NCBI GenBank assembly: GCA_020073005.1 | Contig: JAIQFX010000036.1 | Span: forward strand, 1 to 46,418 | Direction of reading: 5' to 3' | Origin: Terriglobia bacterium | GTDB taxonomy: Bacteria > Acidobacteriota > Vicinamibacteria > Vicinamibacterales > CAVVIG01 | DNA length: 46,418 nucleotides | The notes under the pieces: model-generated | The model's input: only the letters and a program-made list of their open reading frames with translations | Database searches by the model: none | What the model was told of the DNA's origin: nothing | Part shown: piece after piece, positions 26,589 to 38,546 of the stretch | Numbering within the stretch: position 1 is the stretch's first letter | Layout: every line of letters starts with the position of its first letter | Translations under genes and position numbers: made by a program

Positions 26589-28067
26589 ATGAAAACACCC
26601 ACATCTCCTCTTCTTCGTGCTTTCGTGTCTTCGTGGCTAACCGTCAGCCTGTCAGTCCTGTGCGCGGTCGTGGTCCTGACCGCCCAAGCCCCGGATCGCT
26701 CGCATCCGCCGACACCGGGGCCGGCGCCGTCGCTGCACATGCCGCCGATTCAGAAACGCGCGCTCTCGAACGGGCTGCCGGTCTGGATCGTGGAGCTGCA
26801 TGAAGTGCCGGTCGCGCAGATCAACCTGCTGGTGTTCAGCGGCAGCGCCGACGATCCGCCGGGACGCTTCGGCGCGGCGAGCCTCGCGTCGGCGATGCTC
26901 GAGGAAGGCGCGGGTTCGCGCTCGGCCCTCGAGATCGCGGACGCGATCGATTATCTCGGCGCGGATCTCTCGGCCGGCAGCGGGATCGACTCGTCCGCCG
27001 TCCGCCTGCACGTGCCGGTCGCGCGTCTGGCCGACGCGCTGCCGATCATGGCGGACGTCGCGCTGCGGCCGACATTCGAGAAGGAAGAGCTCGATCGGCT
27101 CCGCCAGCAGCGTCTGACGCAGATGATCCAGGGGCGCGACGATCCGCAGACGATCGCGAGCACGGCGTTCCCGCGCGTCCTCTACGGACCGCGGCACCGC
27201 TACGGCACGCCGACCGGCGGCACGGCAGAAACGATCAAGACGTTCACGCCAGACGATCTCCGTGAGTTCTACTCGTCGACGTTCCGTCCCGATCGCGCGA
27301 CGATCCTCGCGGTCGGCGATCTGACGCCGGACAAGGTGATGCCGCTCCTCGAGAAGAGCTTCGGCGCGTGGAAGCCGCAGGGCGCGGCGGCCGCGAAACA
27401 GGCCCTCGCCGCGGTCGACGAACCGGCCGAGCGCACGGTGTATCTCGTCGACAAGCCCGGCGCCGCGCAGTCGCAGATTCGCATCGGCTGGATCGGCGTG
27501 CCGCGGTCGACGCCGGACTACTTCCCGCTCGTCGTGATGAACACGATTCTCGGCGGCTCGTTCAGCTCGCGGCTGAACATGAACCTGCGCGAGCAGCACG
27601 GCTACACCTACGGCGCGTCCTCGCAGTTCGACATGCGCGCGGCCGCCGGTCCGTTCATCGCCGCCGCCGGCGTGCAGACGGACAAGACCAAGGAATCGCT
27701 GACCGAGTTCTTCAACGAGCTGAACGGGATCCTCAAACCGATTCCGGCCGAAGAGCTGGCGCGCGCGAAGAACTACGTCGCGCTGCGCTATCCCGGCGGC
27801 TTCGAAGCGACGAGCGACATCTCGCGCCAGCTCGAGAACGCGCTCATCTTCCATCTGCCCGACAACTATTTCTCGACCTACGTGCAGAACATCCAGGCCG
27901 TCACCGCCGCCGACGTCGCGCGCGTCGCGCAGAAGTACGTCGCCCCCGGCCGCTTCGCCGTCGTCGTCGTCGGGGATCAGAAAGCGATCGAGCCCGGCAT
28001 CCGCTCGCTGAATCTCGGGCCGATCAAGGTGATGACGATCGATGAGGTGTTCGGACCGAAACCGTAG
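26589..28067 (+). CDS. M16 peptidase non-catalytic partner (492 aa)
   Basis: The protein has the M16 fold but reads ASAMLEEGAG where the HXXEH zinc site should be, so it is proteolytically inactive. The C-terminal half keeps the substrate-binding Arg/Tyr pattern (EQHGYTYGASSQFDMRAAAGPF). It would form the closed heterodimer with the upstream catalytic subunit. Residues about 7-19 of its signal region are encoded by a copy of the CTTCGTG repeat (26608-26645), almost identical to an intergenic copy at 36308-36345. Its last 44 bases overlap the 3' end of the convergent lectin-like gene. Confidence 0.93.
   Translation: MKTPTSPLLRAFVSSWLTVSLSVLCAVVVLTAQAPDRSHPPTPGPAPSLHMPPIQKRALSNGLPVWIVELHEVPVAQINLLVFSGSADDPPGRFGAASLASAMLEEGAGSRSALEIADAIDYLGADLSAGSGIDSSAVRLHVPVARLADALPIMADVALRPTFEKEELDRLRQQRLTQMIQGRDDPQTIASTAFPRVLYGPRHRYGTPTGGTAETIKTFTPDDLREFYSSTFRPDRATILAVGDLTPDKVMPLLEKSFGAWKPQGAAAAKQALAAVDEPAERTVYLVDKPGAAQSQIRIGWIGVPRSTPDYFPLVVMNTILGGSFSSRLNMNLREQHGYTYGASSQFDMRAAAGPFIAAAGVQTDKTKESLTEFFNELNGILKPIPAEELARAKNYVALRYPGGFEATSDISRQLENALIFHLPDNYFSTYVQNIQAVTAADVARVAQKYVAPGRFAVVVVGDQKAIEPGIRSLNLGPIKVMTIDEVFGPKP
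26608..26645 (+). repeat. CTTCGTG repeat inside a signal-peptide coding region
   Basis: The 38 bases (CTCTTCTTCGTGC, TTTCGTGT, CTTCGTGG, CTAACCGTC) are the reverse complement of 36308-36345 with two mismatches. The core is the octamer CACGAARA repeated three times on the minus strand. Here the repeat is translated as part of the M16 partner's leader. Confidence 0.8.
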
Positions 28068-36310: not shown

Positions 36311-36315
36311 GGCTA

Positions 36316-36394
36316 GCCACGAAGACACGAAAACACGAAGAAGAGAGATAGGTGCTCTTTCCTTTCCTCTTCGTGCGCTTCGTGCCTTCGTGGC
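36316..36394. repeat. Long inverted repeat built of CACGAARA octamers
   Basis: Left arm 36316-36345 (GCCACGAAGACACGAAAACA then CGAAGAAGAG) and right arm 36367-36394 are near-perfect reverse complements of about 28 bases with a 21-base A/G-then-T/C loop. It lies in the 170-base gap between the S9D peptidase and the ABC pair; it could form a strong hairpin terminator. The left arm has a near-identical copy inside the M16 partner gene. Confidence 0.8.
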
Positions 36395-36449
36395 AACCGT
36401 TCGTCCGTCGTTCCACGTACGGCGACTGGTAGTAGCCCGTAACCGCCGA

Positions 36450-36455
36450 TAGATT
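36450..36455 (+). promoter_or_regulatory. -10-like TAGATT, probable leaderless start
   Basis: TAGATT ends eight bases before GTG at 36464, supporting that codon as start of the ABC ATPase. No Shine-Dalgarno is visible. Confidence 0.4.
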
Positions 36456-36463
36456 TGGTGGTT

Positions 36464-37177
36464 GTGGTTCGCGTCAGCCATCTCACCAAGCGCTACGGAC
36501 ATCTCACCGCGCTGAGCGACGTGTCGTTCTCGATCCGCCCGGGCGAAGTGCTCGGCGTGATCGGGCCGAACGGGTCCGGCAAGACGACGCTGTTCGAGTG
36601 TCTCGCGGGCGTGTTGCCGGACGATGGCGGCGCCGTGCTGGACGACGGGCGCGCGCTCGCAACGAACGAGCGGTCCTCCGTTCTGTTCTATTTGCCTGAC
36701 GCGATCGCGCCGTGGCCGGCACAGCCAGTCCGCTGGGCGCTCGATTACACGGTCGGCTTCTTCGGTGGCCGGCTCGATGCGCTCGACGATGTGATCGCGC
36801 GGTTCGATCTCGCCTCGATCCTCGACTCCCCCATCGGCACGCTTTCGAAAGGACAACGCAAGCGCGCGCTGCTGGCGATGAGCCTGTTGACGCCGCAGCC
36901 CGTGCTGCTCGCCGACGAACCGTTCGACGGCCTGGATCTGCGTCAGACGCGCGAGGTCGCCGAGGCGCTGCGCGCGCAGGTTGCAGGCGGGCGCACGCTC
37001 GTGCTCTCGATTCATCAGATCGTCGACGCCGCGCGCATCTGCGATCGCTTCGTGTTGCTGAGCGGCGGATGCGTCCGCGGCGAAGGCACGCTCGCCGAAC
37101 TGTCGGCGATGGCGACGGCGCGCGGCGCCGCGCCGCGTGAGCAGAACCTCGAAGAGGTGTTCCTTGCGCTTACATGA
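36464..37177 (+). CDS. ABC transporter ATPase of an export-type pair (237 aa)
   Basis: Motifs are Walker A GPNGSGKTT, a degenerate signature LSKGQRKR, Walker B VLLADEPFDGLD and switch-His in SIHQ. The C-terminal NLEEVFLALT is typical of CcmA/GldA/NatA exporter ATPases. Start is uncertain among TTG 36455, GTG 36458 and GTG 36464; I favour 36464 for its eight-base spacing from TAGATT. The permease gene follows, with a palindromic repeat beginning at the stop codon. The pair resembles gliding-type or Na+/drug exporters; the substrate is unknown. Confidence 0.9.
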   Translation: MVRVSHLTKRYGHLTALSDVSFSIRPGEVLGVIGPNGSGKTTLFECLAGVLPDDGGAVLDDGRALATNERSSVLFYLPDAIAPWPAQPVRWALDYTVGFFGGRLDALDDVIARFDLASILDSPIGTLSKGQRKRALLAMSLLTPQPVLLADEPFDGLDLRQTREVAEALRAQVAGGRTLVLSIHQIVDAARICDRFVLLSGGCVRGEGTLAELSAMATARGAAPREQNLEEVFLALT

Positions 37178-37240
37178 AGGGGACGGGTCTCCGACTGTGT
37201 TCGCGCGGAGACCCGTCCCCTTTTTCAGACCCGTCCCCTT
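37177..37240 (+). repeat. AAGGGGACGGGTC palindrome inserted at a gene start
   Basis: Perfect 17-base arms (37177-37193 and 37206-37222; AAGGGGACGGGTCTCCG and its complement) enclose a 12-base loop, and a third half-copy AGACCCGTCCCCTT follows at 37227-37240. Similar GGGGACGGGTC palindromes accompany Y1/RAYT transposases in other phyla. The left arm begins at the last base of the ATPase stop codon. Confidence 0.8.
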
Positions 37241-38546
37241 TGTCTGGCTCCTCGAGAAGGAGTGGCGGGAGCTGCTGTCGTCGCGCGCCTGGTGGGTCAT
37301 GCTGCTGCTGATCGGCCCGCTCGTCGGCGTCTCGTTCATCGGCGCCGTCCGCACGTATGCGGAGGTGAGCGGCGCCAACGGCGTCGCGACAGGCGCGGGC
37401 GAAGCGTTCTCGCCGCTGGTCGGCGTCTGGGCGCCGACCTTCAGCGCGTGCGAGCTGGCCGCGGCGTTTCTGCTGCCGTTCGTCGGCATCCGCCTCGTGT
37501 CCGGCGACAAGCAGAGCGGCGCGCTGAAGATCGAGTTGCAGCATTCGATGTCCGCGCTCGCGCGCATTGCGGCGAAGGCGCTCGTGCTGCTCGCCGGCTG
37601 GAGCTTCGCGTCGGCCGCGCCGCTGGTCGCCATCGTCCTGTGGAAGGCGTACGGCGGCAGCGCGTACGCGCCGGAGCTCGTCACGATCGCATTCGGCCAT
37701 CTGCTGAACGCGGGATTGACGATCGCGCTGGCGGCAGCGACGGCATCGCTGACCGATCATCCGTCGACCGCGGCGATCCTCACGCTGAGCGTCACCGTCG
37801 GCACGTGGATTCTGAATTTCATCGCCGCCGTACAGGGCGGCGTGTGGGAGCGCGCCGCCGGCTACACGCCGACGGCGATGGTGGCCGAGTTTCAGCACGG
37901 CCTCATCCGCCTCGACGTCGTCCTGATCGCGATCGCGCTGATCGTCGCGGGCCTCGCGCTCGCGTCGCTGTGGATGCGTCTGGGCGTGCCGGTCCGCCGC
38001 CGGACCTGCGAATCGCTCGCGCTCGCGGCCGGAACGATCGCCGCGATCATCGCGTGCTCGTTCGCGACGCCGAGCTGGGATACGTCGGAGAACCGGATGA
38101 ACTCGTTCTCCGACGCCGACGAAACCGCGCTGGCCTCGATTCGCGCGCCGCTCCACATCGAGGCGCACCTGGCGCCCGAAGATCCGCGGCGCGTGGACCT
38201 CGAGCGCCGCGCGCTGTCGAAGCTGCGTCGCGTGCTGCCGAAGACGCAGGTGCAGTACGTGTCGGCGACGTCGATCGGCTTGTTCGAGCAGAGCGCGCCG
38301 CACTACGGCGAGATCTGGTACGACCTCGGCGGCCGCCGTGAGATGAGCCGCCTGACGACGGCCGAGGGCGTGCTCGAGACGATTTACGCGCTGGCGGACG
38401 TCAAGCCGCCGGTTGAGAGCGACGAAGAGATCTTTCGCGGGCATCCGCTCGCGGCGCAGCCGAAAGGCGCCGCCGCGGTGTTCTACGGCATCTGGCCGGC
38501 GCTGATCGTCGCCGCCGGATTTCTGGTTCGGAGGAGACACGCATGA
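37197..38546 (+). CDS. ABC exporter permease, GldG-like, with repeat-derived N-terminus (449 aa)
   Basis: The most plausible start is GTG at 37197, inside the loop of the palindromic repeat. The conserved part begins FVWLLEKEWRELLSSRAWWVML. Six or seven membrane helices are visible (about residues 30-280), then an extracytoplasmic domain of about 140 residues (ADETALASIRAPLHIEAHLAPEDPRRVDLERRA in part) and a final helix. This resembles GldG/ABC-2 permeases with a periplasmic domain. The first residues FARRPVPFFRPVPF are encoded by the repeat and contain a duplicated RPVPF. The stop overlaps the next ATG (ATGA at 38543). Confidence 0.8.
   Translation: MFARRPVPFFRPVPFVWLLEKEWRELLSSRAWWVMLLLIGPLVGVSFIGAVRTYAEVSGANGVATGAGEAFSPLVGVWAPTFSACELAAAFLLPFVGIRLVSGDKQSGALKIELQHSMSALARIAAKALVLLAGWSFASAAPLVAIVLWKAYGGSAYAPELVTIAFGHLLNAGLTIALAAATASLTDHPSTAAILTLSVTVGTWILNFIAAVQGGVWERAAGYTPTAMVAEFQHGLIRLDVVLIAIALIVAGLALASLWMRLGVPVRRRTCESLALAAGTIAAIIACSFATPSWDTSENRMNSFSDADETALASIRAPLHIEAHLAPEDPRRVDLERRALSKLRRVLPKTQVQYVSATSIGLFEQSAPHYGEIWYDLGGRREMSRLTTAEGVLETIYALADVKPPVESDEEIFRGHPLAAQPKGAAAVFYGIWPALIVAAGFLVRRRHA

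Follow-up and report, generated by a model that had tools for sequence, protein, structure and literature searches.

A REP-like palindrome at an ABC transporter ATPase-permease junction and its dispersed, mostly intragenic family in an Acidobacteriota genome

The palindrome and the permease start codon

In contig JAIQFX010000036.1 of Terriglobia bacterium, a palindrome spans the stop codon of an ABC transporter ATPase ORF and the start of the permease ORF that follows it, which raises the question of where the permease begins and whether the palindrome supplied its start codon. The window (the whole stretch of DNA analyzed, 46,418 nt) carries at this junction a perfect 17-nt inverted repeat on the forward strand, with arms at 37177 to 37193 and 37206 to 37222 and a 12-nt loop, ACTGTGTTCGCG, at 37194 to 37205. 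The left arm consists of an outer AA pair, the fixed 13-mer GGGGACGGGTCTC (37179 to 37191), and an inner CG pair; the right arm is CGGAGACCCGTCCCCTT, and a third half copy of 14 nt, AGACCCGTCCCCTT, occupies 37227 to 37240. Repeat analysis reproduced exactly the 17-base-arm palindrome and third half-copy given in the preliminary description. At arm lengths of ≥15 nt and loop lengths of 3 to 20 nt, no second perfect inverted repeat was present in the window. The predicted RNA folding energy of the hairpin region was −55.5 kcal/mol, compared with a shuffle mean of −39.5 kcal/mol (z, −4.26; equaled by 0 of 200 shuffles). A different palindromic repeat (CCACGAAGACACGAAAACACGAAGAA...TTCGTGCGCTTCGTGCCTTCGTGGC) lies at 36315 to 36395, between a peptidase-like ORF and the ATPase ORF; a similar piece is found at 26608 to 26647, and pieces also occur in other loci.

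The ATPase ORF (36455 to 37177, forward strand; Pfam ABC_tran, E value 1.1e−23) ends with a TGA at 37175 to 37177, and its last codons carry a Shine-Dalgarno (SD)-like stretch and a TTG in the permease frame. The likely SD, GAGG at 37154 to 37157, ends 6 nt before the TTG at 37164, and the stretch preceding this codon has a predicted anti-SD duplex energy of −7.1 kcal/mol. This TTG is upstream of the palindrome, starting 11 nt ahead of the stop codon that ends the ATPase ORF. Read from here, the permease ORF (MRLHEGDGSPTVFARRPVPFFRPVPFVWLLEKEWREL..., 37164 to 38546, forward strand) resembles ABC2_membrane_2 at 22.6 bits, under the Pfam gathering cutoff of 27.2.

Thirteen loci were compared for the start (the window's own, 10 relatives, and 2 further loci), and the core motif was present in 12 of them, G080 being the one without it; in 8 loci the named records matching the permease were Acidobacteria-type metagenome bins. 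At 11 of the 12 loci (the exception being G012), a TTG was found at the same distance (11 nt) ahead of the ATPase stop, the codons of the ATPase supplying an SD-like stretch (duplex, −5.9 to −12.5 kcal/mol). Seven of the 12 junctions were short and insert-free, placing the TTG 9 to 11 codons ahead of a conserved WLL; in the insert-bearing junctions this distance was 27 codons in the window's own genome (G000), 33 in the congener G001, 33 in G022, and 39 in G019, all in frame and open. In G001, which carries a different insert, the TTG is the sole ATG, GTG, or TTG in frame before the WLL core. Since the TTG and SD arrangement has been kept across orthologous loci, the native start of the permease is most likely TTG 37164.

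The preliminary description took a GTG at 37197 to 37199 to be the only good in-frame start and proposed that the insertion had replaced the native one. Sequence and ORF listing agree that this GTG lies within the loop and in frame, but neither of the two claims built on it was supported: orthologues share an in-frame TTG with a GAGG, and in G000 the insert comes after it. The probable ancestral start, which was to be sought there, is found upstream of the palindrome site in 11 of 12 loci, including the 7 insert-free junctions. The description of the repeat as inserted was borne out, as it is absent from this junction in G001 and from the 7 short orthologous junctions.

Four relatives carry inserts of their own at this junction (G001, G022, G019, and G012), all of which fold as hairpins and differ from the G000 palindrome; the TTG frame is open in three of them (G001, G022, and G019). 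The G001 and G012 inserts have a 33-nt stretch in common (91%), and 20 nt of the G019 insert are also found in L091, L114, and L116; no second copy of the G022 insert was found among the loci compared. The hairpin-forming sequence at the G012 junction (L039) includes CATCCTGAGCCCGTCGAAGGATGAG, and an ATG there could start the permease.

The favored explanation, to which a probability of roughly 0.7 is given, is that a REP-like element entered the ATPase-permease junction just after the native TTG of the permease. The element comprises 13 fixed bp, mostly flanked on each side by 2 variable paired bp, and a loop mostly of 12 nt. Because the length added is divisible by three and introduces no stop in the frame, the permease would still be translated from TTG 37164 in vivo, with the palindrome and its half copy probably contributing about 18 extra, presumably harmless, residues after the native start; a permease started in this way would contain a peptide spanning MRLHEGDGSPTVFAR. 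The repeat is thus likely part of the permease N terminus, extending it in frame downstream of the original start; of the earlier view of a new N terminus, the added residues probably stand, and the replacement of the start is unlikely. As only 10 nt separate the TTG from the hairpin, an effect of the latter on permease initiation is possible.

A dispersed family located mostly inside genes

The palindrome belongs to a REP-like family with copies scattered through the genome. In the 5.86-Mb G000 assembly (179 contigs), 37 exact pairs of GGGGACGGGTC and GACCCGTCCCC separated by 6 to 36 nt were identified (none with the reversed control pattern), which rules out a palindrome unique to one locus. 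The 13-mer arm GGGGACGGGTCTC occurred 124 times on the two strands with at most one mismatch (control, 0), and a shorter head, GGGGACGGG paired with CCCGTCCCC at 12 to 38 nt, gave 77 pairs (control, 0). Across 100 genomes, head pairs were present in nine: G000 (77), G025 (33), G028 (31), G001 (11), G002 (11), G072 (7, with 1 for the control there), G013 (3), G015 (1), and G097 (1). The longer arm GGGGACGGGTC was confined to four (G000, 37; G001, 4; G002, 2; G072, 1). Among the copies listed, the second half of the stem varied with lineage or subfamily, being TCTC or AGTC in G000, mostly AGCCC in G025, and mostly AGCT in G028. Another abundant palindromic repeat was seen at L118:5821-5877 (C148), with dozens of matches on both strands in G001 and G002, and the GGGGACGGG copy at L118:9461 is flanked by arms of a similar GGTCC-rich palindrome.

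Copies were placed relative to genes by codon-frame scoring and by reading of translations, a matter of judgment without a gene caller. By this placement, 25 of the 37 are intragenic and in frame; 6 of the 25 are close to the N terminus, where a later start is possible. Six more are at gene ends or junctions (the window copy, L003:2213, L006, L034, L067, and L072), and the other six are intergenic or ambiguous (L003:1501, L028, L030, L031, L118:9461, and L125). The codon score alone, trained on 15 ORFs of G001, gave 12 copies with the same open frame on both sides, 2 with a shared frame that contains a stop at or next to the element (L031 and L067), 14 that were coding on one side, 7 with the same strand in different frames, and 2 with opposite strands. 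Twenty-one ORFs were translated through the element. Their products presumably include an MFS transporter, a DEAD-box helicase, a protein kinase, another helicase carrying four copies, and aldo/keto reductase, glycerate kinase-like, HtrA-like, LigD-like, and QueC-like proteins; what we take to be a DnaE-like polymerase hosts a one-mismatch copy outside the 37. No clearly broken gene was found among the 37 copies read, with L067 and L031 as possible exceptions. By reading, two further genes are candidates for repeat-supplied starts: the start of a NUDIX-like gene seems to lie within a half copy (L003 ~2255), and that of a histidine-kinase-like gene may lie within a loop (L072 ~1535).

Twelve G000 sites, including C122:32960, a one-mismatch copy outside the 37, had bracketed alignments to G001. 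The element was absent from G001 at eight of these (the window included), present at two (the MFS site and, with degenerate arms, the aldo/keto reductase site), and partial at two (one arm at C122:32960; the right arm and half copy at C148:10127). Absence in the compared relatives was recorded at the four helicase sites, an ABC-ATPase site, and the window site. Compared with relatives, the helicase sites showed net gains of about 21, 27, 57 (versus G009, manual count), and 30 nt, in frame and with a short native stretch replaced. A clean 42-nt insertion does not account for these gains, so some native sequence was lost there. Net differences that were not multiples of three (+1 versus G001 at C122:32748, +43 versus G002 at C122:32960, and +13 versus G001 at helicase site 3) were located where an N terminus is presumed or next to a break in the G001 reading frame. 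This break accompanies a different insert at L112:1149-1185 in the G001 helicase, where G000 has a nested element; a misassembled G/C run could explain it. At the MFS site, 4 of 13 loop positions and about 1 arm position differed between G001 and G000 (manual count); aligned DNA of the two genomes was 83 to 95% identical in the C119 and window stretches. In G014 and G015 (L114 and L116), the C-terminal part of the orthologous helicase carries long in-frame peptide repeats of the SLRSSARTSEALPARG type.

The anatomy of the element was compared across 36 exact copies, one nested match of the 37 being excluded. Counted inward from GGGG, the stem is exactly 15 bp in 35 of 36, with 13 fixed bp and 2 variable but paired ones. 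The inner dinucleotides pair as GG/CC (17 copies), GC/GC (7), CG/CG (5), CC/GG (4), TG/CA (1), and GA/TC (1), and one copy has an unpaired GG/GG. Pairing stops at this point: none of the 36 copies is paired at inner stem position 16, against a permutation mean of 10.6 (0 of 20,000 permutations). Outside the arms, positions 1 and 2 are paired in 27 and 29 of 36 copies, respectively, and position 3 in 3. Half copies and nested arms adjoin several copies. The loop is 12 nt long in 24 of 36, and these 24 loops of the TCTC subfamily had a mean identity of 4.67 versus a null of 4.02 (SD, 0.09). The best pair agreed at 9 positions (null mean, 8.2), which rejects a recent burst with shared loops in this subfamily. 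A weak loop consensus was detected (EM score of 145.7 versus a null mean of 114.8 and a maximum of 130.9 among 60 nulls). A single base distinguishes the loops of two AGTC copies that lie 166 bp from each other (C60:13857 and 14023), and several G025 loops look alike.

These features raise the idea that the arm is copied while the dinucleotides and loop are mostly made anew at each insertion instead of being inherited from a parent copy. If so, loop and paired dinucleotides would be particular to each insertion, and, with survival mainly in frame inside genes, the genome would keep generating short peptide insertions that preserve the frame. The idea is weakened by the loop consensus, the near-identical C60 loops, and the similar G025 loops, and was considered quite improbable.

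Alternative readings of the junction

Had the element replaced the native start, translation would begin at GTG 37197 in the loop and give MFARRPVPFFRPVPFVWLLEKE. The codon is in frame, and its anti-SD energy of −7.6 kcal/mol, a value that does not specify which bases pair, is similar to the −7.1 kcal/mol for TTG 37164. TTG is moreover a weak start codon, G012 is without the TTG arrangement, and the NUDIX-like and histidine-kinase-like genes, as read, may be cases in which other copies supply starts. These points are outweighed by the well-spaced SD and upstream TTG conserved in 11 of 12 loci, by the position of the G-rich stretch preceding the GTG, which sits in the hairpin stem about 13 to 14 nt away, and by the frame itself: all four insert-bearing loci with the TTG keep it open, which would be unneeded with downstream starts. 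Replacement of the start by the GTG is therefore unlikely.

The hairpin could instead be a selected regulatory device, which couples translation of the ATPase and the permease or acts by attenuation between them, and not mainly a passing insertion. A very stable predicted RNA hairpin so soon after the TTG would suit such a role, as would the 6 of 37 copies at gene ends or junctions; most copies, however, lie within unrelated genes, and 7 of the 12 orthologous junctions are short and insert-free while the others carry different inserts, and this role is improbable. Strong hairpins within conserved-looking proteins, such as a kinase-like protein, or before the HCGTCSKC motif of a QueC-like one (names by reading), also recall the byps of yeast mitochondria, elements that are bypassed or removed. 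If the palindromes were bypassed or removed at the RNA level, their residues would be missing from the protein, but neither frame nor freedom from stops would then be needed, and the intragenic copies keep both; this is hardly credible. An in-frame insertion after a retained TTG remains the preferred reading.

Transposase genes and known repeat families

Spread of the element inserted after the native TTG would perhaps involve a RAYT-type (Y1/HUH) transposase. Four PF01797 genes were identified in G000 (Pfam Y1_Tnp, above cutoff). One of them, C106:14091-14645, is RAYT-like: its protein matched the REP-associated tyrosine transposase model NF047646 of NCBIfam (E value, 7.9e−19; 68 bits, below the cutoff of 80) and had no match in PDB. 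A GGGGACGGGAGTCGG...CCGACTCCCGTCCCC palindrome starts about 105 nt upstream of its start codon, and two half copies lie at its 3′ end. The flanking repeats belong to a sister subfamily, GGGGACGGGAGTC (AGTC), which has a 9-nt head in common with the TCTC subfamily of the window. No GGGGACGGGTC, with one mismatch allowed, was present within 1.5 kb of any of the four genes, so the idea that a RAYT gene adjoins a copy of the TCTC subfamily was discarded. The closest relative of the C106 transposase, in G025 (59%), is flanked by inverted GGGGACGGGAG with the same head, in a genome with 33 copies.

Relatives of the C106 transposase (E value, ≤1e−15) were found in 36 of 100 genomes, G000 included. 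Of the 30 transposase loci fetched, 26 were examined; 19 share inverted 12-mers between their flanks, and the head GGGGACGGG or GGGGTCGGG was read in 7. At the same threshold, a match was present in four of the nine copy-bearing genomes (G000, G025, G072, and G097, leaving G001, G002, G013, G015, and G028) and in 32 of the 91 genomes without copies. Across the 100 genomes, the presence of transposase relatives thus shows no clear correspondence with that of copies, and mobilization by the C106 transposase would be no more than a possible mechanism.

REPINs are short palindromic units linked to RAYTs; unlike these, the usual unit here is a single hairpin. Like GTAG REPs, the family is a short stem-loop dispersed in many copies through one genome, and unlike these mainly extragenic elements, its copies are mostly inside genes (25 of 37 by placement). 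Di Nocera et al. (2013; PMC3733652) describe intragenic REPs in several species, most REPs nevertheless being intergenic, and equate the intragenic repeats of R. conorii with RPE-4 and RPE-6. As characterized there, REPtrons and TIRtrons resemble the present system in their many short palindrome copies, half copies, and a RAYT-like gene flanked by a similar inverted repeat, and differ from it in that this family lacks an unpaired GTAG or CGTC tag and misses GGGGWSAS by one position. That motif is shared in part by the TIRs of the TIRYTs, which include an acidobacterial group (PMC3733652). Here, GGGGACGG matched it at 7 of 8 positions, no copy of the motif lay within 1.5 kb of any of the four PF01797 ORFs, and no fixed tetranucleotide was read in the flanks of 36 TCTC and 7 AGTC copies; because it lacks both the tag and the motif, the family was not filed as an intragenic REP or an RPE. 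RPEs, as summarized in a MITE review (PMC10969869), are about 150 bp long and encode a conserved peptide. Likened to them by that description, the family is similar in having in-frame palindromes within unrelated protein genes and dissimilar in its length of about 42 to 46 nt, its peptides that vary by frame and loop, and its occurrence outside Rickettsia.

The family works like an intragenic REP or RPE; unusual are its mostly intragenic location, the variable but paired dinucleotides of its stems, and loops with little in common. Among the papers listed by literature searches, none was a report of this palindrome family or of intragenic palindromes in the Acidobacteria group, and a search with the arm sequence gave only papers unrelated by title. 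What emerges is a REP-like element in the Acidobacteria group that is mostly inside genes and would lengthen proteins in frame. Genomes with and without given copies offer tests of the origin of the palindromes, the role of RAYTs, and the tolerance of proteins, and annotation should avoid moving starts to codons within the repeat. Two other Y1 transposase genes of G000, L081 (C114:62551) and L082 (C118:12449), have inverted repeats of the GTAGCGCGA type near their ends, which suggests a separate, GTAG-tagged REP family.
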